In this document: positions 11,193-33,063 of the stretch, one piece after another
Position numbering within the stretch: the first letter of the stretch is position 1
How the letters are laid out: the number at the start of each line of letters is the position of its first letter
Assembly (NCBI RefSeq): GCF_020906515.1
Contig: NC_085852.1
Span: 3,348,001 to 3,412,000, forward strand
Direction of reading: 5' to 3'
From: Vanrija pseudolonga
Taxonomy: Eukaryota > Basidiomycota > Tremellomycetes > Trichosporonales > Trichosporonaceae
DNA: 64,000 nucleotides
Made by a program: the position numbers and the translations under genes
The notes under the pieces: model-generated
The model's input: the letters and a program-made list of their open reading frames with translations, nothing else
The model's database searches: none
What the model was told of the DNA's origin: nothing

Positions 11193-11201
11193 AACGGGAA
11201 T
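11193..11201 (+). promoter_or_regulatory. GAACGGGAAT-type site, single
   Basis: AACGGGAAT preceded by G and followed by TTTTGG, 466 bp upstream of the permease A ATG. Same extended core as the other sugar-gene sites. Confidence 0.5.
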
Positions 11202-11551
11202 TTTTGGCTGATATCGCAAATGACATGACCCAGCTGGGTCAGTCCAGGGTGCGGCTGAGGCGGCTACGGCCCAGCTGAGCCGACGTCGGACATGGAGCGG
11301 CGCATGTAACCCTTGCCAGCTTACCAACTCTGGTGGTGAGCTGCCTTGCTTCAGTATCCGATCGAGGGGCCGACAAGGGCCCCGGGTCGAGATCCATTCG
11401 AGTGGGGGTTGACAGAAAGGTTTGTTTATCCTGGTGGTATCCAGGGTGGGGGCCAGGGAGTTCGGTCCGTGATCTGGCGTGCTGCCAGAGGATTGGAGGC
11501 CGAACCTCCGTGTTCCTGGTGAGCCCTCATTGTCGTCTTGTCCCTGGAACG

Positions 11552-11560
11552 AACGGGAAT
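11552..11560 (+). promoter_or_regulatory. GAACGGGAAT-type site, single
   Basis: AACGGGAAT in the context GAACGGGAATTTTTG, nearly identical over 15 bases to the site at 11193 and in the same orientation. Confidence 0.5.
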
Positions 11561-11941
11561 TTTTGTTGAGGATTGGAAAGAACTGCATGGCAGGCCGCAA
11601 GATACGGTGGAAGGGGAGGCGGTCAGGGCGGGGTGTCGTTGCGGCCCTGTAGCCGCTTTCCGTCTATGGACCACTCATCCTGAGTGGGGGTGAGCCACAG
11701 TCGCCTACCTGTCCGACCAACCGGTGTCAATGCTAATTCTAGAGGGCAAGCATGCACGCAGTGCATCTCATGACCAGTCAGGAGCCCGTATACAGCGCCG
11801 ACCGCGGACCGACGTCGGAGGTGTGAACGGCGCTGCCATCTCCGTGAGCCCCGTGCAAGGCTCCATCACATCGGGGTTGAGGCAGTAACCCGCGCCAATC
11901 CCTCGGCACACAGGTGTCGCTGTCGCTTCTCAATGCTCAAG

Positions 11942-11982
11942 ATTCCCGTTCACCGCGTTTCCAACAGCCCAACATTCCCGTT
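11942..11982 (-). promoter_or_regulatory. Tandem pair of ATTCCCGTT sites, 32 bp apart
   Basis: Two exact copies, at 11942-11950 and 11974-11982, both followed by C. Opposite in orientation to the copies at 11193 and 11552, about 1.1 kb before the GH36 ATG. The 32-bp step recurs at 25501 and, as 33 bp, at 31851. Confidence 0.55.
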
Positions 11983-13039
11983 CTTACACGGCCAAACCGG
12001 GACGACGAGCCGTATCTAGTCGGAACGGTGGACCGTAGCTATGATTATCGCGAGGTGGACATGGCGATGGGCGCGCGCCACGTCCGACGCGGACCCGATC
12101 CCACCCACCTCCCCCACCCGCACTTTTGTCTGTCTGTCTGCAACAAACTTGGCACATGATGCGCCCCACGGATCCCCACTCTGGATAATACTGCAGCATT
12201 CCCCGCAGCCGGAAGTGCTGCTGCGCGGTTTGCATGCCTTGGAGACAGTCAGACTTACATTGCCGGACTCTGACGCCCGCGGCATCGGCGAGATCGCCAC
12301 TCTGCTATGTCAGTTTACAAGCGGGGGCCGACAGTGTGCACTCCATACCAGGCAAATCTCTGCCTTTCGCCCCGAACCGTTTGGCCGGACCTCCGCATGT
12401 ACATACGGCCGAGTGCAGTCTTGGAAACCTCGCTACTATGCAGCATTGTCGGGACGAGTCCACTCTGATTCGCAACCGTCGGCACACAGACCGATCGCCG
12501 TTCCGAACATGAGGCATGTGGCCCCGCAGTCAGTCTTCTACTTCACATGCCGCTTGTTCTCGTCAGCGCCCGCCAGTTTGGCGAAAGCGCGTTTTACACG
12601 GAACCTTGGCCCGCACAACAAGCGATGGAACAGGAGTTGACGGACTCTCCGAACGCCAGGTTACCCACCTTGCGCATACAGATTGCGCCAAGGCAATACC
12701 CTGGTTATACGTGGTTGGTTGGCGCCCGTAACCGGCGCATGCTCTCTCAGTTGACACCCTAACCCTCCCTGGGACGGTCGGGTCCAGGTCCGAACGCTTA
12801 TAACCCCACATCGTATTGCCCATTCTTTGACAGGACTCGCGTTCGCAATGTTGCCCCGCCCACACAACTGCAACCCTTACTCTCGTCACCCTCGGCCCGA
12901 CCCCACCGACCCCGGCGGGCAGCTCGTTTATTGACATTGGCGCTGACAGCTCCACGGCATACATCGTGTCCTGCTGAACTGGTTGTCTGACGCTGTGACA
13001 TTGTAGCCGAAGACGTCGACGACCTCGCTGACGACCACA

Positions 13040-15325
13040 ATGACCACCATCAACGGCAACGCGAGCGCCAACACCGGCGCCAGCTCCAGCACCACCTCAG
13101 TGCCCTCGGCCGACCTCGGCATTCACGTTCGCGACAAGCAGTTTGCGCTCACTTCCCGCGGCGCCGACTACCGGTTCCACGTCGATTCTGACGGCGAGCT
13201 CGTTCACGACTACTTCGGTGCGCATGCCCCGGGACTAGCCCCGTGGGAGTCGCGCGGCGCCAACGGGTGGGGACACAAGCAGGTGGACGAGCGCCGCGAG
13301 TTCCCCGACCATGGCCGTGGTGACTTCCGCTTGCCGGCTGTCCATGTCCGGCACTCCACGGGCTCGACGGTCAGCTTCTTCGAGTACGTCGGCCACGACA
13401 TCGTTCCAGGCAAGCCCAAGCTGCCTGGTCTTCCGGCGACGTTTGGCACACCAGAGGACGTCACCACGCTGGTGGTACATCTCGAGGACCACCGGTCAGG
13501 CGTCAAGGCCGACCTCAACTACTCGGTGTTTCACCAGCACAATGCCATCGCGCGTAGCTTCACTCTCACGAACAACGGCTCGAGTTCGGTAGAGATCCAG
13601 CGTGCGGCGAGCTTCTCCATCGATTTTGGGTCGGGCGACTGGGACATGGTCTCGCTCTCGGGCGAGTGGTGCCGTGAGGCCCAGGAGACGCGCCGCAAGG
13701 TGCAGATTGGGACGCAGGGGTAGGTCCAAGACCCGCAGTTGACCGCTACGAGCCCAGCTGAACACTGCAGCTTCCAGAGCTCCACCGGCTACTCGTCGCA
13801 CTACTTCAACCCCTTCGTCGCCCTTCTCCCATCCACGACAACCGAGACCCACGGTCCGGCATACGGCATCTCGCTTGTGTACTCTGGCTCGTTCAGCGTC
13901 GATGTCGAGCGGCACGCATTCAACCTCGTTCGAGCTTCGATTGGCCTTAACCCGCTTCACCTCTCGTGGCCTCTGGCCCCCGGCCAGTCGTTCACGACTC
14001 CCGAAGCCGTGGCCGTCTATTCGTCCGAGGGTCTCGGCGGCATGAGCCGAAATCTGCACCGACTCTATCGCAACCACCTGTCTCGCTCCCCATGGACGCT
14101 GCGGGAACGACCGGTGCTCCTCAACTCGTGGGAGGGCATGTACTTCAATTTCACCGCCGAGATGCTCTACAAGCGTGCCAGGGACGCGGCTGAGCTTGGC
14201 GTGAGCCTGTTCGTTCTCGACGACGGATGGTTTGGTGACAAACACCCTCGCGTGCATGACAATGCCGGGCTCGGTGACTGGGTCGTCAATCCCAAACGCT
14301 TGCCCTCCGGGCTGGACGCCTTTGTCAAGACAGTCAATGCGATCGAGGTCAAAGGAGGACGCGGCCCACTCAAATTCGGTATCTGGGTCGAGCCGGAGAT
14401 GGTTAACCCCAGCTCGGAGCTATACGAGGCACACCCAGACTGGGTGCTCCACTCTGGGACACACAAGCGCACCGAGATGCGCCAGCAACTCGTGCTCGAT
14501 CTGAGCAAACGCGAGGTGCAAGACTACATCATCGACGCCATTGGCAAGATCCTGTCATGCGCAAACATCGAGTATGTCAAGTGGGACAACAACCGAGGCA
14601 TGCACGAGGTGCCGTCGCCGACCACGCCGCACTCCTACATGCTCGGCCTGTACCGCATCCTTGACTCGTTGACGACATCGTTCCCGAAGATACTGTTCGA
14701 GGGATGTGCATCGGGCGGTGGGCGATTCGACCCCGGCATCCTGTGCTACTGGCCCCAGTCGTGGACGTCGGACGACACGGACGCTGTCGAGCGCCTGCAT
14801 ATCCAGTTCGGCACGTCGCTCGCGTACCCTCCCTCGTCGATGGGCTGCCACGTGTCGGCGGCGCCAGGGGAGCAGGTGGGCCGCACCACCCCCCTGCTAT
14901 TCCGCGCACATGTCGCGCTCATGGGCGGTTCGTTTGGATTTGAGCTCGAGACCGAGAAGATGTCACCCGAGGAGCGCGGGCAGGTGACAGAGATTGTTGC
15001 GCTCGCAGAAAAGGTCAACCCGTACGTCATCGACGGCGACCTGTACAGACTGGCGCTGCCCGACGAGTCGAATTGGCCAGCAGCACTGTACGTCAAGCCG
15101 GATGGCTCTAGCGCTGTGCTACTCGCCTTCCAGGTCTACGCGCGCATCCGCATCGACACGCCGCTACTCCGTCTCCAGGGCCTGGACCACTCGGTGTACG
15201 AGATCGACGGTGTGCACTACTCCGGCGCGGTACTTGCCCACGTCGGCCTCAAACTCGACTGGAAGCCGGTGCACTTGCCAGCGGCTGATCATCAAAGCAA
15301 GGTGCTCTTCATCAACCGGGTGTAG
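13040..15325 (+). CDS. GH36 alpha-galactosidase, apparently intracellular
   Basis: Two exons, 13040-13719 and 13771-15325; 744 residues, the usual length of GH36 enzymes. It hydrolyses terminal alpha-1,6-galactose from melibiose, raffinose or galacto-oligosaccharides by a retaining mechanism. The beta-sandwich N-domain is followed by the TIM barrel. Barrel motifs are LLNSWEG, FVLDDGWFG (about 374), GIWVEPEMV, HPDWVLH, the nucleophile Asp in YVKWDNNRG (about 499) and the acid/base Asp in TSDDTDAVER (about 560). A CASGGGRFDPG motif lies between them. The N-terminus is Asn/Ser/Thr-rich without a hydrophobic signal core, so the protein should stay in the cell and act on imported sugar. This fits the divergent alpha-glucoside-type permease. 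The intron joins in frame at GTQG-FQSS. Confidence 0.95.
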
Positions 15326-15659
15326 ATGTAGATTGCAAGGGCGGCTTGTGCGTGATAAGATGAGTGTGTAGGAGATTAGCAGTGATTGCAGATACATAGA
15401 TTGCCCTGAAGTTGCCGAGATGCAACGCAGCTCCCCCACTCTGGCGGATAACGATGCGATGAGACTAGGATCATGCAGAGAGCGCGGCGAGGTGCCCGAT
15501 ACACTCGTTGTGCGTGGCGACGTGCATATGGCGGCGATGATGTGCGACGACAAGGTTGACCCGACCGCCCACAGTGGTGGACATGTCCTCGGACCGCTCT
15601 CCTCCGTCGCCGATATACCGGTCCTCGGCACAGGGACCGACCTCCACACGTCAACAGTC

Positions 15660-15668
15660 ATTCCCGTT
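15660..15668 (-). promoter_or_regulatory. ATTCCCGTT site before GH95
   Basis: Exact copy followed by C (ATTCCCGTTC), 109 bp upstream of the chosen GH95 ATG. It is the only one of the set lying within 110 bp of a start codon. Confidence 0.55.
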
Positions 15669-15730
15669 CTTGCCAGGTCAGTATATGTAATTGTCTGGAG
15701 CTCATAAAGCCAGCCAGCGCACCGTCGAGG

Positions 15731-15757
15731 CCCCCACCCCCCCCCCCCCCCCCCCCC
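15731..15757 (+). repeat. Poly-C tract (21 uninterrupted C)
   Basis: Five C, one A, then 21 C, ending 11 bp before the GH95 start codon, so probably inside the 5' leader. Tracts of this kind are slippage-prone, and the true length may differ in the genome. Confidence 0.85.
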
Positions 15758-15768
15758 GCGGCAACACG

Positions 15769-18060
15769 ATGACACGGCAACATCTCGCTCACTCAGGGCC
15801 GGCGTCGCAATGGCTCGAGGCCTTGCCCCTCGGCAACGGCTCCCTTGGGGCCATGGTTTTCGGCGGGCCTCTGCGAGAACGGATCGCGCTCAACGAAGCC
15901 ACGCTGTGGTCCGGCAGCCCGCGCAACGAGCGTGAGGCGGCCATCCCAGCCGAGGTGGCCCAGCCTGCCATTTCCGACGCGCGAAAGGCCACTCTGGAGC
16001 GCAGGTTTGCCGACGCGACGGCTGCTGTCCAGAAGCTCCAGAGCCGATACTCGCAGTGCTTCCTCCCCCTGGGCGACTTGGAGCTTGAGTTGAAGACTGG
16101 GGATGGTGACAAAGTGGCCGACTATGCCCGCGCGCTCGACCTCGACCGCGGGCTTCACACGGCCAGCTACACGCTCAACGGAGCAAAGGTTCGATGGACG
16201 ACGCTGGTCAGCCACCCGGACAACGTACTGCAGGTGGTGATCGAGTCGGACGTCGCCGTGGACATTAGCGCGAGCTTCAAGAGCCAGCTGAGGTCGGTTG
16301 ATCTGGTCGAGGCTTCCACCCCCCGCCGTCTGGTCCGCGCGGTCCGCGCACCGAGCGACTGCCCCCCGCCTCACGAGCCCGAGGAGGGCGTCACCTGGTC
16401 CAACGCTCCGGGCGACGCCATGCGCGCGGCTGTCGTCGTCGGTTGGACGCACGATGGGCAGGACGGCGAGGGTATGTCTGCAACCGACGTGCGGAGTCTC
16501 ACTCTCGTTCTCGCCGCCGCCACGACCTTCAACGGCGCGCGCGAGCTCCCCTGGTCCGACCCCGCTTCTGCCATCGCGGCGGCAGCTGCGCGTGTCGACG
16601 CTGGGCTAGCTGCCGGCGCCGCTGCTGTCACATCCCGCCATGAGACAGACTACAGCGCGCTATTCTCTCGCGTGACCCTCTCTCTGCCTGGGCGCGCGCT
16701 CGACTCGACCCTATTCGACTACGGCCGATACCTCCTCATTGCCGGCTCGCGCGGCCCCATTCCCATGACGCTCCAGGGGCTCTGGAACCACCACCTCCGT
16801 GCGCCGTGGTCGTCAAATTACACCACCAACATCAACCTGCAGATGAACTACTGGGGCGCACATGCTGCCAGTCTCCCCGAGACGGCCGACACGCTGTTCG
16901 ACTTCATCGACGACCTGGCCGCGGCTGGATCCGAGACGGCACGCAGGCTGTATGGCGCCAACGGATGGGTCGCGCACCATAACGCTGACATATGGGCGTA
17001 CACTTCTCCTGTGGGCCTGGGTCGTGCTTCCCCGCAGTGGGCATTCTGGCCGTTCGCCGGCGCGTGGTTGTGCTTCGCGCTTGTCGAGCATGTGCGCCAC
17101 GGTGCCAGCCCCGAGTTTGTTAAGACTCGTGCTCTGCCTGCAATCCGGGGCGCGATGTCCTTCCTGCTCGACTGGGTGGTTGTCGTCGACGGTGTGGCGA
17201 CCACAGCGCCATCCACGTCGCCAGAAAACACATTCATCCCCGACGGCTCCGAACAGTCATTTGCAGTCGGCCGGTCGTCGACCTGTGACCTGGCGCTGAC
17301 GGCCGAGCTCGGCCAAGCGCTGTTGGACCTCACGGCAGCGGTTGGGCTGCCTGACGATGAAGTGACAATGTCGACACGCAAGCTGTTGCCTACCATCCCC
17401 AAGGCTGTGGCGGGCCGCGACGGCCTCGTGCCCGAGTGGGCCGATGACGACCCACAGGCCGAGCCGCTGCACCGGCACATCTCCCACCTCGTCGGCCTGT
17501 ACCCCGGCACGACGCTGCGCGAGCCCGAACAACTCAAGGCTGCTGCTGCGAGCCTCGATGACCGAGGGGACGACTCGACGGGCTGGTCATTGGTTTGGAA
17601 GCTCGCCGCCCGCGCGAGGCTACGCGACAATGCCGCTGTCGACCGACTCCTCGAGCTCATCTTCCGCGACGCCGACATGGAGGAGGGTGACGAAGACTTT
17701 GAGCAGCGCGGCGGCCTGTACCCCAACCTGTTCTCGGCTCACCCTCCATTCCAAATCGATGGCAACCTGGGATATGTGGCCGGAGTCGCCGAGGTGCTCG
17801 TTCAGAGCCATGAGGACGGCATCATTGTCCTTGCAGCAGCACTACCAGCAGCCTGGCCCAGTGGAAGCGTCAAGGGACTGGTGGCTCGCCCGGGGGTCAC
17901 CGTTGACTTGGCATGGGAGGCAGGGAAGCTGGTCGAGGCTAGCCTTTCAGCTCAGTCCGATGCTGCCCGTCGCCAACTGCAGGTGCAGTATGGCAGCGCT
18001 AGAGCGAGTGTGGACCTCGGCGCAGGTCCTGTCACCCTTCGCGTCGCCGACTTTGCATGA
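15769..18060 (+). CDS. GH95 alpha-L-fucosidase, apparently intracellular
   Basis: A single exon of 763 residues, typical of GH95, an inverting family of 1,2-alpha-L-fucosidases with some alpha-L-galactosidases. Motifs in order: LPLGNGSLGAMVFG (about 19) and NEATLWSG in the N-domain; LQGLWN and SNYTTNINLQMNYW (about 349, carrying the catalytic Asn pair); WPFAGAWL; SPENTFIPDG (about 483); HISHLVGLYPG; FQIDGNLG (about 661-668, whose Asp corresponds to a catalytic acid). The ATG at 15769 is chosen because the only longer extension lacks an ATG and would translate the poly-C tract into a proline run. With this start there is no signal peptide, unlike the secreted fungal GH95 enzymes I know of. It follows the alpha-galactosidase in the same direction. 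Confidence 0.93.
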   Translation: MTRQHLAHSGPASQWLEALPLGNGSLGAMVFGGPLRERIALNEATLWSGSPRNEREAAIPAEVAQPAISDARKATLERRFADATAAVQKLQSRYSQCFLPLGDLELELKTGDGDKVADYARALDLDRGLHTASYTLNGAKVRWTTLVSHPDNVLQVVIESDVAVDISASFKSQLRSVDLVEASTPRRLVRAVRAPSDCPPPHEPEEGVTWSNAPGDAMRAAVVVGWTHDGQDGEGMSATDVRSLTLVLAAATTFNGARELPWSDPASAIAAAAARVDAGLAAGAAAVTSRHETDYSALFSRVTLSLPGRALDSTLFDYGRYLLIAGSRGPIPMTLQGLWNHHLRAPWSSNYTTNINLQMNYWGAHAASLPETADTLFDFIDDLAAAGSETARRLYGANGWVAHHNADIWAYTSPVGLGRASPQWAFWPFAGAWLCFALVEHVRHGASPEFVKTRALPAIRGAMSFLLDWVVVVDGVATTAPSTSPENTFIPDGSEQSFAVGRSSTCDLALTAELGQALLDLTAAVGLPDDEVTMSTRKLLPTIPKAVAGRDGLVPEWADDDPQAEPLHRHISHLVGLYPGTTLREPEQLKAAAASLDDRGDDSTGWSLVWKLAARARLRDNAAVDRLLELIFRDADMEEGDEDFEQRGGLYPNLFSAHPPFQIDGNLGYVAGVAEVLVQSHEDGIIVLAAALPAAWPSGSVKGLVARPGVTVDLAWEAGKLVEASLSAQSDAARRQLQVQYGSARASVDLGAGPVTLRVADFA

Positions 18061-18228
18061 GCCATGGCTGTCCCCTCCACGGTCGCTGCATGGACGTGTA
18101 TGATAACAATGACATAGAGCAAGGGTCCTCCAATATGATACAGATGTGTGGGAGGTTAGGTCAACAGACACCGCGCATGTTGAAAGCGAGATGCAGGGAT
18201 TATAACTGACGGGGAGAAGCGTAGTTGC

Positions 18229-20225
18229 CTAGGCCTTTTCGAGGTTGTTCTCGTCCGACTCTTCGGCTGGTCGCGTGTCGAGAGGGAACTCGACCATCTC
18301 GGCTGGGCCAAAGTAGTGGCGACGCGCAAAGACAAGATACCAGACGGCGCCGAGAAGCATGACACCGATCGTGATGGGACCGGCGTAGTTCATAGTCTCC
18401 TTGGTGACGGGGTACACGGCCGGGATTGAGAGGATGACGCACTCGAACACGATGTAGATGACAGCGACCCAGTTGATTACCTTGCTGAGCCAGCCATCGC
18501 CCATGTAGAATGGCCCGGGCTTGAAGTCGACGCCCTCATGGCCGGCAAAGATCATGCGGAAGAAGATGGGCAAGCCGTACGACAGGTCAAGGGCGACTGT
18601 GGCCAGGGAGAAGACTGCTTCGGCTGCGATGGGGCTCGCAAAGTCGAGGCAGCCGAGAGCCACGGACAGAATAACAACACACCACACAGCGTTGATAGGT
18701 GTCTTGGTGTACGGGTTGATCTTGCCCAGGAGCTTGCCGTCGGGAAGGCCGTGGTCACGGCTGAAGGCAAAGAGTGCGCGGGCGTTGGCTGGGGTCAGAC
18801 GTGCTCAGGAAGCGGGGCACTCACCCTGAAGACCAGTCTGGAGAGTGAAGAACGAGATGAGAATGGTGAACGACCACACAACGAGTGCGCCGGGACGTCC
18901 GAGACGGAGGATAAGGATGGCGAGGTAGGCATTGCCCGTCGAGCCTGGGAGGTCGGCCAGCGGACCAGAAACCAAGACCATGACGATGCTGGGCGAGTTA
19001 GCGGAGGTTGTCGGCTGGCTGACTCACTTGAGAATCCAGCCCAGGAGACCAGTGCTGATGACAGCAAGGAAGATTGCGACCGGCGCAGCAATGGCAGCAC
19101 GCTTGACTTCCTCGGTGATATGCGCCGTGGCATCGTATCTGGGAGGGCGTGAGATGTGACTCCGTAAAACTTGCTTACCCAGTCATGGTCCACTGCACCG
19201 ACAACAGGCCGAGGAGGAAGGACAGCCCCGTGTTGGCCCAGCCGCTCTGGTTCTCGAGGTAGGTGAAACTGTACTTTGCTGTGTGGATCTCGTGGCGAGG
19301 CGTCTTGGCGAGGACCGCAATGACGGTGCATAGCAGCACACCGATGTTAACTGGGATCAGCAGGTGTCGGCAGCGCAAGCTCACTAAAGGCAAAGTACTG
19401 AGTGACGAACGCCAGTTGCTTCGTTCTCAACGAGTTGAAGAGTCCGTGGATGAAGAGCAAGCCGACAAACAGGCCGACAACCTGGCCGGCACTCGGGTCG
19501 TAACCTGCCTCTCCCCGGGACGCGCCGTACGCCGCCCAGATCATCTGCGCAAGGCCAAACTCTGTCGAGGCCGCGCCGGCAATGTTGCCCAGGACGTTCA
19601 TCCAGCCAATGATGTAGCCGACCCAGATTCGGTGCTTGGGTGGGACGAGACGTGCCGAGGCCGTGTAGCTTGGGGGGGCGTTAGTACGTCGTCGCCACCG
19701 CTCCCTGCTCACAGTGCGCCGGAGGTGGGGTAGGCCGAAACAAGCTCGGCAACTGCCGTTCCGATGAAGCACGAGAAGAAGGCACCGATGAGCCAACACC
19801 AGATGACGCTGGCCGGGCCACCTGTGAGCATGGGCGTCGAGAACGTCACCGCGATGGACGATGAGACGCCCATGATGGAGAAAGCGAACGAGAACGTCGC
19901 AATGTTGCCAAACTCGCGGATAAACTCTTGCTGCATGGTGTCAGCACGCCCAAGGGAGACACCACACCGCGAGGCAGACCTATCGACTATGCAGTGTGCG
20001 GTGTCGCGCGGCGTGCTCTCGCCTCACTCTCCTCCTCATCGCAGCCGTAACTGGGATTAGAGCCCCGGCTCTAGGCGGCGCGGGCCGCGTACGCACCTTG
20101 TATCCCTGCTTCTCAAGCTCGATGCGGTCCTCATAGTCGGAGGACGCCTCGGAAGTCGGGGCCGGCACGACAGTGTCGCTGGGCTTGGCGACCGAGAGCC
20201 GTCTGTTGATGGCGGCGAAGGACAT
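18229..20225 (-). CDS. APC-family amino-acid/GABA-type permease
   Basis: Seven exons: 20225-20097, 19930-19713, 19668-19385, 19350-19179, 19138-19028, 18988-18825, 18788-18229; 545 residues. A plasma-membrane or vacuolar symporter of the amino acid-choline family (fungal Uga4/Hnm1 type) with about 12 membrane segments. Marks are FGNIATFSFAFSIMG in the first segment, GGPASVIWCWLIGAFF, AELVSAYPTSGAL, GYDATAHITEEVKRAA (the consensus loop after segment 5) and ALFAFSRDHGLP. Substrate specificity cannot be read. It converges on the GH95 gene, with 168 bp between stops. No GAACGGGAAT site was found upstream, so membership of the sugar set is doubtful. Start: first ATG in frame (MSFAAINRR); the frame extends a little further upstream only through non-ATG codons. 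Confidence 0.92.
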
Positions 20226-22231
20226 GGCGGAGGGTGAAGATGTGGTGGAGTCGGCCACAACACAAGGGTGCTAAGCAGACCAAGTGTTTGAGATTGTCTC
20301 GGGGTTCAGTGAGGAGGGCAGTAGAGAGAGTGTGGGGGGTAAAGAGTGAGGGACGGCAAGGACCTCTTGTCTTGCGCAAGACGTCCAAGCTGTGGGGTAA
20401 GTAAACGAATGTGATGTCCCAGGAGGAGGGATGGGAAGGCGTGTGGTCACCAGGTCCTTGCATCGCACGTATCGGCTGTTTCGAACACACAGTTGTCGCA
20501 TGAAAAAGTGGATAAAAATAAACCAACGCAGACGTCACAGAGCTTGTCAGGAGTGATGGACGGGCAGGTTAGGGGCTGGCGCATCAACACGCAGCGCAGG
20601 CTGGGTGGGGCTCTCGCCGCCGCGCATGCGCAATATCACTGGTCAGGAGTGCCAGGGGTTACCGGTTAGCTCGTTGCCAGAGTGCCGTGGGAACAATGGT
20701 CCAACGAGCAAACAGGCTAAGAAGCGGAACAGTTGGTGTCGTCAAGCAAGCGCGATTGTGTTCGCACTTGGAACTGCCTACTTTTCGCGTTGATGCATTG
20801 TTGTTTGGTGCAGAGTTCAGGTCACATGACGGGCAAGGGACATCAAACTTGTCAGTACCTCGCTTGTTTGCCGCCAGTCAAATCGAGGAGAGGCAGGCAG
20901 CTTCGGCAAGACAGTCTAGCCGGTGACCATGTGCCCAAATGCGGGGCTCCTGCCGAAGAAACACCACCTGGCGCTCGAGTGTCCACACGCGAGCGACATC
21001 CGACTAATGGAGTACAATGCTTACACTAGGTGATCCCGAGAGGTGTCACGACTAACGGGCAAAGGGCAGGCGGTGTACCTTGGCCCCAACTTCACACTCA
21101 GCTTGGACGACTGCTAACCGCCGGCATAAACCCCATCACAGCCCACACCAACATTCCCATCGCGGGTGGCCACTTGTCGTGCGTATCTCAACACACAGCG
21201 TTGGGATCGTCCCAGCCTGCCTGCGGATCAGCCAGTCGATCAGGTCAGCTTCCAGCAAGCTTGAAATAGAACGCCAAGTGGAGAATCAGGGGGTTTGACA
21301 CCGTGAGCAGCGATCCGCGCACCACGCCATCTTCGCACAATTAGACGAGTGGCAGGGCGCTCGAGGTGGCCCGAGCTACGACGCGTGGGGAGATTCCAGA
21401 CCTTGTGCCTCGTTCACGGAGCTTGAGTGAGCCCCAGACGATCCCCGGGCACAATCGGCTCGATGGGAGGTCATCAACTCGTTGCTGCTCCATGGCAAGC
21501 GTGGCCTCATGGAAACAAGGGGAGGGGGACCGTTCGGTGGTCGCTGTTCGGTGACTGCTCGGCTCCGGCTCCCCTCGGCTCTCTTCTGATAATTATTTGA
21601 CCATAACTACCGCGGAAATGGTATTAGACCCAGGCGGGGCCATTTGGAGAGAACAATGGCCTTGAAGACTGGCGCAGAGGTTCATTGTGGCCACAACAGG
21701 TGCGCACTGCCACCCTTAGCTACGTCTAGTCTCACGCCGGGCTTCTCATTGACCCATATTTCTCCAAGCGGTTCTCAAAGTATCCCTACACCACGTACCG
21801 GCTTCTTGAGCCTCACCAGCTTCGGACAGCCGTGGAGCATGGATATTCAACGTCAGCCAGCCCCACCAAAACCGCGGCTGGCGCTGGCGGATCGGCCGAG
21901 TTTGAGTTGTTGAAATCATCCACGTGTAAAACCACATGGGAATCGCGTGGTCCAAATTTCCTCAGGTGATTTTTGGGATCCAACTTCCCTGCCGTCCCTG
22001 CACTTCGCTTCACTGTCAACTTCGCCAGAAGGGTCTTCATCTCAGGCAAGCTATGAACAGGGTCCACCGCAGATCCTGGAGAGGTGGGCAGGTCCGTCTA
22101 CCGCCGACAGAGGCGTTGGAAAACACCTCGGAGTCCGTGAATCTCGGGGACGGCAACGGTGGCCTTGGCATTGGCCATGGGCTGTGCATGTGCGGTGTCC
22201 AGCCGCTGGAAGGGTCCGAGCACGCATCGGA
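20226..22231. other. Gap: APC permease promoter and GNL1 3' flank
   Basis: Two kilobases with no supported gene. The short open frames here lack domains, intron borders or codon bias. Confidence 0.55.
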
Positions 22232-24237
22232 TCACTCCTCCTCGTCCTCCTCGTCTTGCGGGTCGGCCAGGCTCAGCGCGGCGAAGAAGCTGGCGTTGTT
22301 GGCTTTGATAAAGTCGTCGAGAATGTCCTCGCCCTCATCGTCCTTGTCCTCCACCACGTCCTCGTCTGGTCCTGATGTAACGAGGTGGGGTGGGACATCT
22401 CCATGATCGCCCATCTCTTCCTCACCCTCGCTTGCTGTGGCATCACCATGCCACTCGCCGAGGCAGATGCCCTCGCCGCCACGTATAGGCATGGAACCAG
22501 GCGGCCAGAAGCCCCAGCGAACTCGACCGTCAGCGAGCGCGCGCATTATGCCGTCTGCCGCGCGGTTCGAGTCTGGGCGTGCTGATCGGGCAGTCACTGC
22601 CAAAATCAGCTGGGGCATCGCGGGTTGCACACTCACCGAACCCGCGGTCCAGCGCCCGACGGTCCATGATCTCGCCGGCGGTCCAGCGCGGGCCCTTGGG
22701 CTCAGGTGCGGCGACTACCATGCCCTTGCGCCAGGTGCGCTTGGCAGACATCTGGTCGATCTGTGGCTCGGGTGGCGGGAGGCGGAACACGCGCTCGAGA
22801 GGCAGGTACCGCGCAGCGAACGAGATGCAGGCTGGGAGTGAAGGAATCTGGGCGATGGACAGGACTGGGGTGTCAGCGGCGGGTGGATACGGTGTACGTC
22901 ATGCCACTCACTCCCCGACATGGCCTGTAGTTCCATTGGCACCAGACTAGGGCACACCAGACCCGGACAGTCGACGATGCGCACCTCGCGCCGGGCGCCC
23001 CAAAGCATAGTCTGCCAGTGCTTTGTCTTGCCTGGTGTCCGACTGGCATGGACGCGGGTGGTACCGAGGAGAGCATTGAGGAGAGACGACTTGCCGACGT
23101 TTGGCTGACCGACGAGGCCGATGGTCAGGGGCTCGGTGATAGCACCGTTCTGGTATGTTGCCTCCTGCTCGTGCCCCTCCGACTCGAGGTGTACCTCGGC
23201 AGCTCCCTCGAGCTCTGACCAGTTCACAGTCTCTCGGACTTCGGGGTGCCACGCCGCTGTCTTCTCGATCTTGGAGGCGGTCGACGGTGGTACTCGAAGC
23301 CGCTCGTGCGCGGTCTTGAGTGCGCAGATGAGGGCGTTACGCGACTCCGCTGGGATGAGGGGCTTGTGACGACCGTCACCGTACAGCAACTCGGTGTCAT
23401 AGCTACTGACCGAGACGACCTGAACCGGGTCATCGTTCTGCCCCTCGTTGTCGGTGGACCACCATCCGGTCAACCACTGCTTCCAGCCCTCCAGTGCGGC
23501 CGGGTCGACAAGGTCAGCCTTGGTGAGCACGAGTATGATCTCCCGCTTTGGTCGGTGCGAGCGGAGATATGATCGCAGGCTGGGCGGGCAGTGGACAGGT
23601 GGGCAACGTGCGTCGATCAGGAGTAGGACAATGGAGGAGGCTTCGACCACGCGCCAGCTGGTTGTCAGCAGACTGCCTTTGCGTGCACTTACAGTTGACG
23701 CCAAACTTCGAGGTTGGTTTCGAAGCGACTGGGGCTGTGTATTGTGCTCCCAGCGGCTCCGTCCTCCTCACGGTCGTCGTTGACCCAGGCATCGACAGTG
23801 GCTCGGGAACCGGCAAGCCACTTGCGGAACACACCCTCCTCGTTTTCCTCAACCTCGCGCTTGCTCTGGCCAAAGCGGAAGCCTGGGCGCGACGGCACAG
23901 TGAGTTTGCGCGCAGCGGGGTTGTCGACAAGCTCGAGCGGGAACACCGCTGTCGAATCTGGGAGTGGGCGCTGCAGCTCGTCGGCCCAAGCAGCGTTCTG
24001 TGTACGCTCGGCATAGTCGCGCGGTACTGCCAAGAATGTGCTGTGGAGCTCGAGCACGTCTTGTACTTCACTGCGTGCTGTTTTCGTCTTGTCGATCTTG
24101 GTTCGCCCGTTGCTCTTGGGCAGGTCGGCCTCTTCGGGCTCAAGGTCACCGCGCTTCATCGCCCTCTTGGTTTGGAGGTACTCTTTCTTCTGCTTTGCCG
24201 AGAAGGCTACGTGCCTTGGGCGCGCAGGGGAGGGCAT
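22232..24237 (-). CDS. GNL1: GNL1-type circularly permuted GTPase
   Basis: Four exons: 24237-23693, 23657-22912, 22864-22637, 22581-22232; 622 residues, close to human GNL1 (607). MMR1/HSR1-type GTPases of this class act in ribosome biogenesis or nuclear export. The G motifs are permuted as expected: G4 LTKADLVD (about 226) comes before G1 GQPNVGKSSLLN (about 367), followed by DCPGLVCPS as G3. The N-terminus is basic (KQKKEYLQTKRAMKR). The C-terminus is acidic, ending in a run of Asp and Glu. The last junction skips a first possible acceptor; only the second keeps the family stretch ARPDSNRAADGI in frame. A housekeeping gene lying inside the sugar-use region. Confidence 0.93.
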
Positions 24238-25819
24238 CGTGGAGGGAGGGGTGTGTATCGAGGCCTTGGTCTTGTTGTTGTTGCCTGTTGTGGCCTTGTG
24301 TTTGTGTCTAGTGGTCTAGTCTATGAGAATGCAATGATCGTCCTCAGAGTTCTCTGTCGATGCTTTATATTCCCCTCTTGGCGGCCCACCCGCGATGCCA
24401 GACCGACGACTTGTCGAGCATTGTCTTTGCGTGGCACCACCCACATCGTCGTCTCGACAACTGCATCTGCCTCGGATCCGAGTGCTACGTCATAGAATCT
24501 CGGATCCGAAAACTCTCCATTAGGTTTGTGGCCAATTACAATTTCTTTTGTTGAGTGTAATTGTTTTGTATTCATCGAGGCCAACCTCGGTCACCATCGA
24601 CTGTGTTGTTCATGGCCTCGCCTCCTCCTGCCTTGACCTTGATGCCGGGGGCGCCTTGGCACCGCTGATTAGCTCGGGGCTGACAAGCAAGGGAGGAAGA
24701 TCACACCGGCGGATTCACCACCCAGCACACTCCAGCACTCCGAGAACCCCCGAGCACACCCAGCACTGTCCATCGGCCCTCCGTGAGCGGCCAACCACTT
24801 CGACTCGCCGTGGGTTTGGCGGGCAAGGCATGGTATTGTCCACGCTGATGGCGCGGCTGCACCATCACAGGCCCACAGGCGGAACCAATGGCATGGCACA
24901 TACGCCCTACCCATCTCCCTGCTACAGCCCAGAGAGAGTGTGTAAGAACGTATGCCGCTCGAGCCTGTGAGCCAACTCGGGCACCAGTGTGTCTGTCCTC
25001 GGTGGTCCCCCCCCGTATGAAACTATCCACTATCAAGTGCTATACGGCTCCACTCTGTGATAGGCTATCTACGCATGAGGTGCACGCTCCGGGGGTTGAC
25101 AGGGCGTCGGTCATCGCGTACCGACTACATATCCTCAGGAAGCACCCGATACAAGACATCGAACCCCGAGATAGCGGGCGCATCATCAAGATCAACACCC
25201 AGGTGTGCCCCGTTATCGTCGAGTGGTTGATGGGGCGCGCGCAGACAAGCCGGATTGCGATCCACATTCATCAGTAAGTGGAGGACATCAGCGCCCTTCG
25301 GCCTTCGTGAAACGTCTCTGAACACGCGACCGCGACCACGCCCAGCACGTGACGCAAAAGACCTCGGTCCGACGGCCTCCGCCGTGCCCCCTGGATTCTT
25401 TACTGGCCAATGAGGGCGGTGGTCCCTGTGTAAGGATTCCTTTGTCCCTCGGCCCGACAGACACCGACTTGTGCTCTGCTGTTGCCCATAAACAAGCAAA
25501 ATTCCCGTTCGCCCGCTCTTCTGGGCCTCAGGATTCCCGTTCTATCACCAATTTTCGCTTTGTGATGCAGGCAGGCTGCCCACGCGCACAGGAACAGAAG
25601 CCGCCGCCCTCCCCCGCAGGCCACACCGGCAACACAGCCGGGTGGAGTGGAGGGATTGGTGGGGGCTCCTGACTACCACGCCATGGAGGTGGGCTGCTCC
25701 GGTGTCCGCCGCCCATCGTGCGCCTCGCCTTCACAGACAGAGAAGGGACCATCACTGTTGTGTTCTCCAACGCCCCGACAAACCATCTCTGACGGCCCCG
25801 CACCCGGCCCCGCCTCGCC
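24238..25819. promoter_or_regulatory. Divergent promoter region, GNL1 / Zn2Cys6 regulator
   Basis: Divergent upstream region. It contains a tandem pair of ATTCCCGTT sites at 25501-25541 close to the regulator gene. Nothing else supported. Confidence 0.5.
25501..25541 (-). promoter_or_regulatory. Tandem pair of ATTCCCGTT sites, 32 bp apart
   Basis: Exact copies at 25501-25509 and 25533-25541, each followed by C, about 280-320 bp before the regulator ATG. Same orientation and spacing as the pair at 11942. Suggests autoregulation if the regulator binds this motif. Confidence 0.55.
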
Positions 25820-28800
25820 ATGTCTGACCATCCCAGCGCCGGCCAAGACGAAGGCGGCATCCCACCCCGTAGGTCTTGTTGTGATCTCGGCCTGCCTCTC
25901 CGGGAGGCCTGCCGATGGCGGCACATGCTAACACTGCCGTTCCTCACTGCCGACCGCCGCTGCCATGTTCCATGCTACCCAGGTGCCTGCGTGAGTCATA
26001 CGAACGTGGTCACCGTGGCGTGCTGACCATTGCCTGCAGGATGCCTGTCGAAAGGTCCGTTAACCTCAACGTCACCTTTGGAGTTCTTCTGACATGGTTG
26101 CAGATGAAGATCCGATGCGAAGGCAAGGAAGATCCTCCATGCCGGAGGTGAGTGACATGACTCGGCATCCTGGCACAGCTGATGCGGCCAAGATGTCGGA
26201 ATTTTCGCCTGGAGTGCACATTCACCCAGAGCAAGGGTCGGGGGGACGACGACGAGGGCGAGCAAGCTCGGAGGTGAGCATACGCCCAACACCCAAGCCC
26301 TTTCCTTGGAACGTGCGCTCACCAGTGTCACCAAGACGTATTGCGTCACTCGAAGGAGAAGTAACCGGTATCAGTCATACGGTCACCGGTATCAACCAGA
26401 AGCTCGAAGACCTAGGCGTGTTACTGCAGCGGTTGGCCGGCGGGGCAGTCGGTGGCGGACTGCCCCGGATGCATCAGCACAGCAGCCCAGCAATGCCACA
26501 CCACGGAGGGCACCTCGGGTATGGTGGCCCGATGGACGAAGTGTCCCCCGCACACACGCATTCGACAACCCACCCCACGCCACCGACGGCTCGGGATCGT
26601 GAGTGAACCAAGCCTGAGCCGTTGCTGATAACCCAGTGGCAATTGATGCCATTACGGGTCCTATGTCCAATTCGCCGTCTCACCACCCCTCGTCGTCCGC
26701 CTCACATCACTACACGCTCGTTGGTCGCTCACCTGCAGCCATGAATCCACCATGGACCGGGAGCGTGCCTCCAGAGGCTGTATCGCGAGCCATACCCGGA
26801 CGCACACACGGGGGAGAGTGGGCCAATGGGCACCCACCACCCTCCGTACCGGGAACGGACAGCCTGCCATCGCTGGTCCGCGAGGGAACGATATCGGATG
26901 AAGACGACCATGACCCACTTGAGAGCTCCATGCAGGAGCCGTTCCGCGAACTGACACGCAAGGAGGAGGAGGCGAGGCTACGCGCCGAAGGCCATGACCC
27001 CGCTGTCAGGCGCATGAGTCACTCGCGCAACGCCGAGGGAGGTGCGGTGAGGAGCTCGAAGCGCAAACGTCTCAACGATGAGGACGATCCCGACTGGGGA
27101 ACGTCGCCGATTGTAGAGAAGGGCGACCCGAGAGCCAATGCCCAGGACCCAGTCACTGCCGGGTTCTGTACCGAGGAGGAGGGCAAGGAGCTATTCCAAG
27201 CGTGAGTCTGCTCGATTTGATCAGCCTGACGCCTAGATTCTTCAAGCACGCACACCCGTTCATCCCAGTGCTCAACCCGCGAGAGGATACGTGGGAGAAG
27301 TGGGTCCACCCGGCAGGATGTAACTGATGATGAGCCTGCGCCAACGGTCTCCGTTCATCGTCACCGTTATCTTGTCGATCGCCTTGCGTGCTCGGGACGG
27401 GTGCGGACCTCCCTCGGACCTTACCAAGAAGTGTCGCGATTCAGCAGAGGATATGGCTAAGCAGACCCTCTTCTCCCCTATCGCGACACTCGAGACAGTC
27501 CAGGCTTTGAGTGAGTCGTCATCACGGGAGATTAGTGCTGACGGCACCAGCCTTGATTACGTCCTGGGGTGAGCATGCTTGGAGGACATGCTGTCACGCC
27601 ATGGCGCTGGCCGTCGATATGCGGCTATACCGCTGTCTGCCATACCTATACAAGATCCGCACGCAGTCTCGTAAGCCGGACGCAAATCTCGAGAGACAGA
27701 TGCCTCTCGTGGCCGGTGCGAGGGTCTGGCTGGCGGTGAGTAGATGCTCAAGTGTGCTGCGCTGACATTCAGCTCGTCAAGCAGTCGTACGAAATGTCGT
27801 TCAACCACGCGCAGCCCATCCAGTTTTCCGGGTCACTGCAAGAGCGTATCCCATACGCACGTGAACTTCTCCAGCACCCCTTGTCGACCGTGTACGACAG
27901 TCGGTTCCTTGTATCGATCGAGCTCTGCGCTGCACGTGAAGAGGCTTTCCGCCCATGGACTGCATCTAGCTGTCAAGATCTGTCCAGTGTAGATGACGTC
28001 CTCCGCAAGGTCAACAAGGGCATCGACACGTGCTATGAGTACTGGCTCAACTACTACCACCGTGTGGGTGTGCCGTCCGACCACTTCCTCGTCAAGGAGC
28101 TCGGCAGCCAGAAGGCCTATGGTATCATGTTCGCCAACGCCGCAGCATGGTATGGCGTGCACTCGAAGAATGACGCTGTATTGTTGTCCGCAGAGCGCCG
28201 GCAGTGGGTCCAGTCGGCTTTACGTGCGGCGGCCTTCCTCACATCGTCGATTGGCAGTGGCAGGCAAGAGAAGGACTCAGAGTTTGGTAACCACAACTTC
28301 CATGTCGCCATTGTTGCCACTGCACGGTACCTTATTCGCATGTGCGAGCTCATCCCGGACGCGGCGGACCTCAATCAGGTCAGCTTGGACATTGACCGAC
28401 TGTTGTTGAAGCTGCCGTTCTGTGAGTGTATCGCCCGAGATCAGAGCTGACATTTAGATCCTGTGGTACCATTCGCAGAGAGCCTGCGGCGCACGCTCGC
28501 CAAGGCTCGTGACCAAGGCGTGCTGCCGTACACGTCGATATCAGAGCAGGCCGACGCAGCGGTACGCGGTCTCAGCCCACGCGATCCCGAGCAACCATCA
28601 CCAGCATCGGTAGGGAGCCTCGACATCTCGTCACTCCTTCCACCCGGATTCAACGCCTTCCCATGGAACGACCCAGCCGTGGCCGGACGGACGCCTGCAA
28701 GTGTGCTACCATCACAGTCGCCCGCCAACCAATACGGCGCTGAGTTACTGTCTGCCGGGGTCACCTGGCCTGATGACATCTCATTGTCAAACTGGCTGTT

Positions 28801-28934
28801 ACCAGACGGTGCGTTGCGACTCGGGGGCGTGGCTAACCTGTCCAGATGTGAACGGCGCTTCGGGGCTGACAGCCAACGAGCATGACCCAGAAGTTGTTGA
28901 GTGGCTGTCGGCGGTGGCGGGGCCGACTGGTTGA
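25820..28934 (+). CDS. Zn2Cys6 transcription factor with fungal-specific domain
   Basis: Thirteen exons: 25820-25868, 25983-25990, 26040-26054, 26104-26147, 26193-26273, 26336-26598, 26637-27201, 27237-27299, 27335-27510, 27551-27735, 27773-28421, 28458-28808, 28846-28934; 845 residues. Only this splicing gives the binuclear zinc cluster RGACDACRKMKIRC...CRRCRNFRLEC, with Cys at 20, 23, 30, 38, 41 and 48 (CX2CX6CX7CX2CX6C). Exons 2 and 3 are 8 and 15 nt. The first intron is 114 nt, in frame and stop-free; keeping it would still leave a zinc cluster but lose the consensus Arg before Gly-Ala-Cys. A short coiled coil (IASLEGEVTGI) follows, then a disordered Ser/Pro/His-rich stretch. The fungal-specific regulatory domain starts around HPFIPVLNPRED and SPFIVTVILSIALRA. 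Nuclear. It sits between the sugar genes, so control of them is a natural but untested inference. Confidence 0.9.
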
Positions 28935-29638
28935 TGATGAGCGCCTCGACGGCTGATATTGTATTCACGGTGTTGTAAAGGCATGAAATTCCCCCCAGGA
29001 GCCTAATAGTGGTGGCTGGTGAAGGAGGATAGGCGCAATGAGCGGCACATCCATACTATGGTTCCACTCCACGATCGTTATCACTTGAACCTTCCGTGCG
29101 TTGCTTGCCTGCCTATTCGGCGAGAACAACGCCGACTTGGCGACCTTGGCATGCAGGAGGTTGGTTAGGGTTTGAACATTGCGGAGCATTTGGGCGGTTT
29201 GGATTCGAGCCAACGCCGGAGCAATGTTGTACACCAACTACTTCGCTTCTTGGCGGGTCTGGGCATGAGTCGATTGCTACAGATCCTTCAGAGTCACTGC
29301 CCCACATGTTAAGCCACAAGTGATCTGTAGAGGCATCAAGCGACGTCGGAGTGTCTGTAGGTATGGCTGGAGGCGACGTGTGGCGGATTGGACGGATTGG
29401 TGGCGGGCGACGTCCTGTCAAGACCGAGCTGTTCTAAGTTATGTTCAAGCTGTTTCACACAGCGTTCTAACTCCAGAATTGGAACGGGAAACCGCAATCC
29501 ATATTTTTCTTCCCTATGCTTTCATCAACATTTTGTTAAGACAGGCCGCCTCCCCTTTCTCCTTAGGCCCCGCGACCCTGCCTCGTTCACCATTGCGGAT
29601 CCGCATCCTTCGGAACACTCCCAGGTCCACCTTAAGAC
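28935..29638. other. Convergent gap, regulator / permease B
   Basis: Both neighbours end here. A one-off variant, AACGGGAAA at 29483-29491, resembles the sugar motif but differs at the last base and does not lie in a promoter. Confidence 0.55.
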
Positions 29639-31602
29639 CTAAGCCTTGGTGTTGTTGTTCTCAATGTGATCGCGCTCGACGTCCTGTTTGTCGATAGCGT
29701 CATGGGCACCCGCGATCGTCGTGTCGTTGCGTTCGAACACGTCAATGTCGACAGACTGGAACTTGCGCGCGGGGACCTTGGCGACGAACCGGGCGTTCAG
29801 TTCGTGGAAGGTAAGTCCCTGAGTGTTAATCAGCTCTGAAAACCACAGGGGCAGCAGTCGAGAAACTCACCTTCGGCTCGGGGAGACGGAAGTAGATCCA
29901 CACGATGCACAGCCCACACATGCCGGCCCAGTAGAAGGCCGTCTTTCCGCCCCAGTTCCACGCTGTCGGGTTGAGCATGTAGCTGCTGTATGAGCCGTTG
30001 ATGACACCGACGACATTGTAGAAGCCCCGGCCGAGGTTGATAGTCTTGATCGCGAGACGACGGGAAGGAAGCTCGGCGACAAGAGAGTAGCAGACCTGTG
30101 TGGGGGTCAGAGGTGTATTAAAATGCTGCAGTGGGCAACTTACAGTTCCAACAGTGAACTGGTAGCAGACACTCCAGATGAGCAGCATGCAGCCGACGGC
30201 CCAGGAAGACGCCGTGGTGTTGAGGGTGGAGACACCACCAATAATGAGCAGAACGGCGCACATCCAGATGCAGCCGTAGAGGTACATGGAGCGACGGCCG
30301 ATTCCCATTCCGATCAGGACCCAGGAGATGAAAGTACCACCAGTGTTGATCGCATACTGTCCCATGGTCATCGAGAAAGCATTCTCGGGCGAGAAACCAG
30401 CTTGTTCCTGGCCGAGTCAGTGGTGGCGCTTGGGGAAGAGGATCGACATACCAGGAAATAGGTGGCACTGCCCATGAGCGACGATCCGCACATTTGCTGT
30501 ACTGCCCAGGCACCACAAACAATCTCGGTGCGACGGAGGTTGGTTCCGCGGAAGAGCTCCTTGTAGCTGGCACCGGACGTGGCCTGACGCTCCATGGCGA
30601 TAGTGTGCTCGATCATAGCCAGAGCGTTGTTGACCTCTTCCTCCTGGTCACCAGAGTAGAGGCGCTTGAGGGACAAGCGGGCCTCTTCGGGACGTCCACG
30701 GCGGACGAGCCACCAAGGTGACTCGGGGGCGAAAATGGCGGTGAGGATAAGCGGAATAGGCCACACCCACTGCACCGCATACGGGATACGCCAGCCCCAA
30801 TCGTCGGTGCGACGGAGGAGACCTGAAAAGTCAGCAACGGTTCAGCCGGTGTAAAGTAGCTCGCCTCTCAGCATTCCAATGCCAATGAGCTGGCCGATTC
30901 CCCAGCAAGCGTTCACCCACGTGGTGAGGATGCCACGGAGGGGAAGAGGGGCGACTTCGGCGGCGTAGGTCGTCGTGAGGGTCTGGAAGATGCCCCAGGC
31001 AAAGCCGACCAGGAATTGGGCTGCGAGCAGCATGCCGAGAGAGTTGGCGAAGAAGAAGAGGAAGAAGACGCCGCACATCCACACGAGGGTGACGAGCATG
31101 GTGCGACGGTATCCAAAGCGCTCGGCAATCCAGCCGTTGAGCTGTGGTGGTCAGCGCGGGGTGCCACATTGTCACTCACAATGACGCCAACAATGGCCGT
31201 GCAACCGGCAGCATTACCGAGACCGGCCATCCAGCGGGCAGGAATCTGGTAGTCCACCTCGCCGTTCTTGTCAATGTGCATTTGGCCAAAGCGCTTGCGG
31301 AAGGAGGGGTAGGCGTCTGGTTCGTCAGCGCTGGGCTGCCATAGGTACTTACAAAAGTTGCCGGTCAAAACCATGTCGAATGCCTCCATCACGACGGCCA
31401 CCGAAATCATCATGGACCAGAAGCATGCCTTGGGGTACTGCCTGAGACCTTGGATGAGGGTCATCTTGTGCTGCGATCGAGTGGCCTGCTCGGCCTGGAG
31501 AATGAGCTGCTCGACGCGCTCCGACTCGGCTTGAACTTTGTCATCGGCAAAGTGGGCGGCCGGTGGAGGGGCGTCGGTAACGCCAGTACTGGACTTGGGC
31601 AT
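29639..31602 (-). CDS. Alpha-glucoside-type MFS sugar permease (copy B)
   Basis: Seven exons: 31602-31353, 31316-31180, 31141-30865, 30822-30452, 30407-30144, 30095-29871, 29818-29639; 567 residues. Clear paralogue of the permease at 8607-10727: the same MEAFDMVLTGNFYAYP signature region, FGYRRTM, APESPWWLVRRGR, ELPSRRLAIK and RLPEPKG. The first two intron positions are shared. Copy B has four further introns that copy A lacks, while copy A has one that B lacks. The third intron of B (30864-30823) starts GC rather than GT; no GT is available that would restore the reading frame. A tandem pair of AACGGGAAT sites lies 249-290 bp upstream of the start. Substrate is probably an alpha-linked oligosaccharide, by analogy only. 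Confidence 0.92.
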
Positions 31603-33063
31603 TGTCGATTTGTGATGTCGGGGTGAGTGTGGGGCTCTCGATGGCCCCGGCTGGTGGTTATATGTGCACTAAAAGCCTCTGGAGCGCCGCGGTCGGAGTT
31701 GGAGTTGACCATGCTCGAACCGATTTATCGGCTGATTGCGATGATCGACGACTCTGGCCATGTTTCTATGAGCAAGTTGAGGACTTGTTCAGAATCCCAC
31801 AACTCCAGGAGCACTTTGATCCGTCTGTGGTCCGGCCGGGCGACGTTGCGAACGGGAATAATTTTGCGAAGGAGTGGCAATCCAACGGGAATCTTGCGAT
31901 CTGCTGATGCTTTCTCTCTTTTCCTCTGCAATGTTCGGGACACTCTGGACCGGGTGGGGCGATGGGGGTGGACTCAAGGGCCATAGTGGACGTGGGTGGG
32001 AGGTTTGTGGCAAAGCCGCGACCACGAGCCGCGCAAGTGGTGCGCACCTGACCGCCACACACTGTGCATTTGATCTCGACCCTGTCCGCTCCCGGCGGAC
32101 CTCGGAGCTTGCACCGATAGCACCCGCCAGCTGGGAGCCTAGCGAGGTGGGGGCGAGGTTTGATGCGTGGCTACATTTAGGCGTAGGAACAACATGACTC
32201 CGCTTTGGACTGCGAGTTTAAGATGATCACGACGAAATCCGAAATCCGTATCGTCGGTGTGCGGTATGCCTGCCCCCAATTCTCGCTCGCTTCAGTTCGA
32301 CCTCACTATCTCCCCGACGTCAGCAATACAAGTGCGAGGTCATTGCATCTCGTACCACTGTCCTGCGGTGACTCCGTCGCTGACAGAATGTAGACTGATG
32401 GTTGCTTGCGTTCCGAGCGAGGGACATGTGGTTTGCTCGGTTGTCGGTCCCGTCGCCCCTCGGTCAGCGATTTGCGGATATCATGGCGGAGTATTCCCGC
32501 TGATGCGGGGGCTTCCTGCTTTCCTTTGGGCACACACGCGCTTGTGCTTGGCCTTGGCAAAGACTCTCTGTCACATTGTCGGCTCGGCTGCCGATGTAAA
32601 TCGGTGCCGATGTAAGCGAGCGTCTTATTCCGAGCGAGCTGCGGTGGCAGGTGGCTCGTCGACGTTGTTCGTGGCAGTGCTTTCAGTACTCCCCCACTCT
32701 GGTAACCTATGGGCAGGGTCAGCACCCACTCACACGGGGTTCCCGAGGCCTCCACTCATGCTCTTTCCAGTTAATTGGCAACCCCCACCGTGGATCCGAG
32801 GGTGTCAAGGGGGCGGCAAGTTACGGCCCAACGTGAAGCGGCGTCGCGGAGCGTGGGAGTCGTGAGTTTGCACGGTCTTGCAGCCCGTGTCCTAATTACC
32901 GTCAGCAACAGAGGCAGCTCGGGGCGAATACCACCACCGAATTATCGGTGTGCGGGGGACTGTGATCCGCCATTGTCGGATGTGGTTCGGTGTCCCTCCC
33001 GACAAGTGACAGCCGATCCTGCTCACTTCGCCCTTGACGGTTTCATGGTAAAGTCTTAACAGA
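31603..33063. promoter_or_regulatory. Divergent promoter region, permease B / alpha-mannosidase
   Basis: Shared upstream region of two diverging genes. It holds the exact motif pair at 31851-31892 near permease B and a one-mismatch relative (ATTCCCGCT) at about 32493. No gene supported. Confidence 0.5.
31851..31892 (+). promoter_or_regulatory. Tandem pair of AACGGGAAT sites, 33 bp apart
   Basis: Exact copies at 31851-31859 and 31884-31892. The first is preceded by G as in the other sites, the second by C. Both are followed within a few bases by a TTGCG stretch. Confidence 0.55.

Follow-up and report, generated by a model that had tools for sequence, protein, structure and literature searches.

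A recurrent 10-mer as a candidate cis-element of a scattered galactose regulon in Vanrija pseudolonga

In Saccharomyces and Kluyveromyces, the Gal4/Lac9 upstream activating sequence has the form CGG-N11-CCG. We examined a different candidate element, the 10-mer GAACGGGAAT, which recurs among sugar genes in a 64,000-nucleotide stretch (C4:3348001-3412000, hereafter the window) of Vanrija pseudolonga (Basidiomycota, Tremellomycetes, Trichosporonales), and searched for it throughout the 24.87-Mb genome of nine contigs. This word very probably serves as a cis-element of a galactose regulon whose members are scattered over the genome.

Galactose control in described fungi

The available sections of a published account likewise describe the Gal4 site as two half-sites 11 apart (PMC5067116). 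Control of the GAL genes in Candida albicans is ascribed, in the available parts of two papers, to Rtg1-Rtg3 or Rep1-Cga1 (PMC5067116, PMC9925049); there, too, it is non-Gal4 control, with other factors and motifs. The Aspergillus regulators GalR and GalX are Zn2Cys6 proteins, like the candidate discussed below, and the excerpted 2017 review lists their binding sites as unknown, gives no orthologues outside the genus, and states that galactose regulators are known only in aspergilli and yeasts, the situation in other species being "not clear yet" (PMC5468973). For C. intermedia, Lac9 motifs are reported, in the sections available, only in the GALLAC cluster (PMC11497787).

Among basidiomycetes, the excerpts on the Cryptococcus GAL cluster describe Leloir genes under galactose regulation, accompanied by a permease and an alpha-galactosidase, and name neither a regulator nor a motif (PMC8022950), and a GAL10-GAL1-GAL7 cluster is reported in many basidiomycetes in the accessible part of another paper (PMC10218983). 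The Cryptococcus genes are, by those excerpts, clustered, whereas here they are distributed over three contigs. The main text of a U. maydis galactose paper contains neither "promoter" nor "transcription factor" (PMC11264902). Neither such a site nor a basidiomycete galactose regulator was found among the literature matches listed, and the literal-word search, whose 20 listed matches of 2,103 have titles from unrelated fields, excludes little. As far as the literature search reaches, the element is new in sequence and arrangement, while its general kind is known.

Copies, spacing, and clustering of the 10-mer

The window holds nine exact copies of the 9-mer AACGGGAAT, at the positions and on the strands given in a preliminary description of this DNA. 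Eight extend to GAACGGGAAT, again as first reported, and the ninth, CAACGGGAAT, starts with C. Chance had been put at about 0.5 copies; 100 dinucleotide shuffles of the window gave a mean of 0.27, and none of them reached nine, so the claimed excess holds. Two plus-strand copies (11192..11201 and 11551..11560) and a minus-strand pair at a 32-bp step (11942..11951 and 11974..11983) lie in the interval between permease A and a GH36 gene, the first copy being approximately 465 bp upstream of the permease A ATG and the pair approximately 1.06 kb upstream of the GH36 ATG, which corrects its earlier placing. A second minus-strand pair at 32 bp (25501..25510 and 25533..25542) is found approximately 280 to 320 bp upstream of the ATG of a Zn2Cys6 gene, and a plus-strand pair at 33 bp (31850..31859 and the CAACGGGAAT copy at 31883..31892) approximately 250 to 290 bp upstream of the permease B ATG; all three steps and the shared orientations are as first described. 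The remaining copy (15660..15669, minus strand) stands singly, directly before the GH95 reading frame, and, considered alone, could be due to chance. The earlier statement that the copies occupy the gaps before genes is borne out for both permeases, GH36, and the Zn2Cys6 gene, whose coding regions they avoid; the start codon of GH95 is not settled. Three more occurrences of the core RACGGGAA (29483, 30059, and 37946), each isolated, look like background.

A genome-wide scan for enrichment, as had been proposed, gave a divided answer. With the reversed word or pattern as the control, single copies were not enriched, either for GAACGGGAAT (50 versus 40) or for AACGGGAAT (75 versus 76), but same-strand pairs were: the strict pattern ACGGGAATN{5,35}ACGGGAAT occurs 13 times and its reversed control not once. 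Of the 75 9-mers, 39 have a neighbour within 1 kb. We counted 24 gaps of 1 kb or less and 13 of 75 bp or less, where random placement gives means of 0.23 and 0.018, respectively. The departure from chance is in the clustering, not in the frequency of single copies. Even scatter and membership of a dispersed repeat had been named as findings that would speak against the element; the copies are clustered, and only 3 of the 27 GAACGGGAAT places are repeats, all of one kind. These identical-flank copies proved to be tRNA-Asp genes (L022:4935-5006, L024:4997-5068, and L025:4938-5009) carrying the word in the acceptor stem, and they are background copies. No sequence common to the flanks is visible, except among the tRNAs and at four sites of locus L028.

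The extended word reads Y-G-R-A-C-G-G-G-A-A-T. A C or T stands directly before the word in 44 of the 52 motif-selected sites inspected (3 tRNA copies included), and two bases past the word T is weakly preferred. The flanks of these 52 sites show neither a further CGG or CCG at a constant distance nor a CGG-N11-CCG arrangement. The 17 direct spacings are 18, 19, 20, 21, 22, 22, 22, 32, 32, 33, 33, 33, 38, 42, 42, 42, and 43 bp, with 62 bp in addition; the 32- to 33-bp step first noticed is thus one real spacing beside several others (18 to 22, 38, 42 to 43, and once 62 bp). The 17 spacings show a 10.5-bp periodicity (R=0.68, p=2e-4), which persists when one spacing per promoter is used (p=7e-4; our pick where there were two), supporting a spacing of approximately two, three, or four helical turns rather than 32 to 33 bp alone. 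Close pairs in the inspected loci, leaving aside the three tRNA pairs, are direct in 18 of 21 cases, with 2 convergent and 1 divergent (one-sided p=7e-4). The earlier idea of two proteins on one DNA face is upheld insofar as same-strand pairs are helically phased, but their spacing is not fixed at three turns. Since the spacing is variable yet phased, separate proteins cooperating on one face would fit better than a dimer of fixed grip.

Several results weigh against this picture. When the period was left free, the best value was 11.0 (p=0.006); the spacing range was set after the pairs had been seen. With the tRNA pairs included, 18 of 24 pairs are direct (two-sided p=0.023), and pairs within one promoter are not independent. 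Pairs at 44 to 74 bp number 6 versus 21 in the control, 2 of the 6 being at new places, and convergent and divergent pairs occur at 2 places versus 2 and at 1 versus 3, respectively. The inspected sites are 52 of the 75 9-mers, and the other 23 all lack the leading G. A looser RACGGGAA pair pattern gives 17 matches, all at known loci, versus 45 for its reversed control, AAGGGCAR, which forms close direct pairs genome-wide more often than the real pattern does. The looser pattern has no clean control, and the claim therefore rests on the strict one.

A second motif was also sought. In k-mer counts over 18 upstream segments, several words, among them ACACCAC, GGACCGA, CACGTG, ATATCG, ATTGCCAC, and C-runs, rose above a mostly coding background, and these enriched k-mers were not distinguishable from ordinary promoter composition.

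Genes beside the sites

The surroundings of all 27 GAACGGGAAT places were inspected, with a Pfam scan that covered the neighbours' large exons. Besides the three tRNA genes, they comprise 8 single sites and 16 multi-site places (at least two RACGGGAA within 75 bp), and 12 of the 16 adjoin sugar genes or the Zn2Cys6 gene. All three Leloir genes, GAL7 (L011, contig C1), GAL10 (L014, contig C2), and GAL1 (L021, contig C3), have several RACGGGAA upstream. Assuming that 30 to 40 of 7000 to 8000 genes are marked at random, the chance of three unlinked Leloir genes all being so is approximately 5e-8 to 2e-7. GAL1 is the only galactokinase-signature match (PF10509) found genome-wide, the nearer site of its pair being 300 bp before the match, and gal_kin fragments matched there as well. 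Only one of 12 galE-type matches, GAL10, lies within 1 kb of a 9-mer, at 492 bp, and the next is at 38.5 kb. The remaining 11 galE-type matches and the nine scored Sugar_tr genes (9 of 275 candidates scored) serve as negative controls, and for each of them the nearest 9-mer is no closer than 26 kb.

The further marked genes at multi-site places are two GH2 beta-galactosidases (L017 and L023), two GH36 genes (in the window and at L027), and six permeases (A and B in the window, and those at L016, L018, L023, and L028). The regulon is thus most likely centred on galactose, with Leloir genes, alpha- and beta-galactosidases, and permeases across the genome. Start codons were placed through paralogues or reading frames, and that of the Zn2Cys6 gene through a spliced model; wherever they were placed (permeases A and B, L016, L018, and both GH2 genes), the sites are upstream. 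Gene limits from codon scores, which ran through some sites (permease B, L016, and L023), were rejected in favour of these start codons.

At L023:4709-5282, four sites lie between the start codons of the divergent GH2 beta-galactosidase and sugar permease genes, a layout resembling Kluyveromyces LAC4-LAC12 as named in a reference title (PMC11497787). At L028:81-2317, a single permease is preceded by ten RACGGGAA in a stretch of 2.2 kb. Intervals of 139 to 165 bp separate the first five, and four of those five are followed approximately 20 bp downstream by ATTGCCAC.

Four of the 16 multi-site places (L009, L020, L026, and L042) have no assigned sugar gene, which counts against the galactose reading, and two of them, L009 and L026, have no clear downstream gene. 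The phased site groups at L009:4996-5018 and L026:4945-5007 perhaps serve non-coding transcripts or missed genes. At L020, a ricin-lectin match is below the cut-off, and a comparison of the protein with PDB gave nothing below E 0.3. Histidine phosphatase and ornithine cyclodeaminase families were found at L042, and a FucP/GluP-like MFS transporter, also below the cut-off, at L042:561-1946, approximately 2 kb from the site pair; judged by sequence, this transporter and the GH95 gene of the window hint at fucose or galactose use. The single sites lie in or beside a PIG-L gene (L010) and at WD40 (L013), GH92 (L015), MFS (L019), and AAA (L044) genes and the GH95 gene; no Pfam match was found in the large exons of the neighbours at L012 and L043. 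Several of these eight are probably due to chance.

Within the window, permease A (Sugar_tr family; 8231..10727, minus strand, low end approximate, ATG 10727; PF00083, 1.5e-48) is followed by the GH36 alpha-galactosidase gene (13040..15325, plus strand, exons ~13040-13723 and 13739-15325, ATG 13040; PF02065, 8e-140) and the GH95 enzyme gene (15691..18060, plus strand; PF22124, 8e-118). Permease B (Sugar_tr family; 29645..31602, minus strand, low end approximate, ATG 31602) is a paralogue of permease A, with 75% identity across 179 aa, and is divergent from a GH38 alpha-mannosidase gene (33561..36602, plus strand, limits approximate), which may share the 31850/31883 pair. No site precedes an amino-acid permease gene (~18.2-20.3 kb, minus strand). 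A GTPase gene (~22.1-24.3 kb, minus strand) shares with the Zn2Cys6 gene the interval that holds the 25501/25533 pair; the pair lies nearer to the Zn2Cys6 ATG (0.3 kb) than to the GTPase gene (1.2 kb). Positions 3269-6187 encode a hybrid histidine kinase, in which HisKA, HATPase, and receiver domains are accompanied by a weak match to GAF.

The Zn2Cys6 protein and competing explanations

The Zn2Cys6 gene (25820..28934, plus strand, ATG 25820) sits among sugar genes and has a GAACGGGAAT pair in its own upstream region. Its spliced model has 13 exons with GT-AG introns and encodes 845 aa. The zinc cluster is complete, with six cysteines as C-x2-C-x6-C-x7-C-x2-C-x6-C (PF00172, 2e-8, 34.7 bits against a cut-off of 21), and Fungal_trans (PF04082) scores 22.5 bits against a cut-off of 23. 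We take a conserved lysine in the cluster to be the equivalent of Gal4 Lys18, which contacts CGG. In a comparison of the zinc cluster only, the closest PDB relatives were LAC9 (3e-5) and GAL4 (8.5e-4). Among 8000 candidates scored, the named best relatives over the whole length are Trichosporonales proteins, with relatives in Cutaneotrichosporon and Saitozyma, and in a tree the protein groups with one from V. albida. The deposited V. albida orthologue, P0001, is 91% identical and starts MKIRC, leaving it without the first two cysteines, which probably reflects an annotation error. In the window gene, an 8-nt micro-exon (25983-25990) encodes the first cysteine of the cluster; skipping of this exon would shift the frame, and a splicing switch of the regulator is possible on this gene model. 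A micro-exon switch is reported, in the available part of one paper, for a Zn2Cys6 sugar regulator of Trichoderma (PMC11121469).

From the sites, their pairing and phasing, and the identities of the marked genes, we infer galactose induction, cooperative binding, and the binder. Each 10-mer would be a binding site in its own right for a transcription factor. Where sites occur in twos or larger groups, usually in the same orientation and at distances of two, three, or four helical turns, the proteins would be brought onto one DNA face and would act jointly upstream of GAL1, GAL7, GAL10, the alpha- and beta-galactosidases, and the sugar permeases. The Zn2Cys6 protein would most likely be this factor and would control its own gene. 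Taken as a whole, this account seems probable to us; its last element, the resident protein as binder, is the part we favour with more reserve. Such a system would resemble the Gal4/Lac9 regulon in having a candidate regulator of the Zn2Cys6 type, several sites per promoter, and Leloir genes, galactosidases, and permeases as members. It differs in its site, which is one 10-mer containing a lone CGG and is repeated mostly in the same direction at variable, phased spacing; in its unlinked GAL genes; and in a candidate regulator whose resemblance to solved structures lies in the zinc cluster, the part that was compared.

The binder is where an alternative has the most room. With 111 or more Zn_clus matches in the genome, another factor could bind, a point against the resident protein; its own intron-split cluster is not among the 111, which implies that other split clusters were missed too. 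At least 12 relatives of the protein are also present, and a site with one CGG is unlike the CGG-CCG pair of Gal4. An unlinked factor might then read the galactose element, with the Zn2Cys6 gene as a target, e.g., for feedback or as a fucose- or mannose-specific regulator. We consider this rather unlikely, as no 9-mer comes closer than 4.9 kb to any of the 111 matches or closer than 11.9 kb to any of the 18 places of the relatives that were checked, whereas the resident gene has its own pair and stands among the target genes. A general carbon-source element, for derepression or hydrolases, would accommodate the single sites at GH95 and GH92, the nearby GH38 gene, and the FucP-like transporter match near the L042 pair. 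It appears improbable, given that the multi-site places are concentrated at Leloir and galactosidase genes and that the scored Sugar_tr genes are far from any copy.

That the copies are due to chance or borne by a repeat would agree with single copies equalling the reversed control and with the three acceptor-stem copies, but it leaves the strict pairs (13 versus 0), the 24 short gaps, the dissimilar flanks, and the marking of all three unlinked Leloir genes unexplained, and we give it almost no weight. At the other extreme, the galactose regulon may be a Trichosporonales circuit of its own kind, in which phased direct repeats with a single CGG join unlinked GAL genes and a self-regulated, micro-exon-dependent Zn2Cys6 protein reads them cooperatively, splicing possibly switching the regulator; this fuller version is doubtful.

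The control of GAL genes is a standard example of rewiring, and the named regulators in the literature examined, within the sections available, are only ascomycete. The present sequence allows a basidiomycete regulon to be set out as one word, 16 multi-site places, and one candidate regulator. If true, it would be another independent solution to galactose control, differing from the textbook Gal4 system and having unclustered Leloir genes. Whether gene clustering can be replaced by shared cis-elements could be tested directly in this system, and its marked promoters are candidate lactose- or galactose-inducible promoters for yeasts of Vanrija's group.

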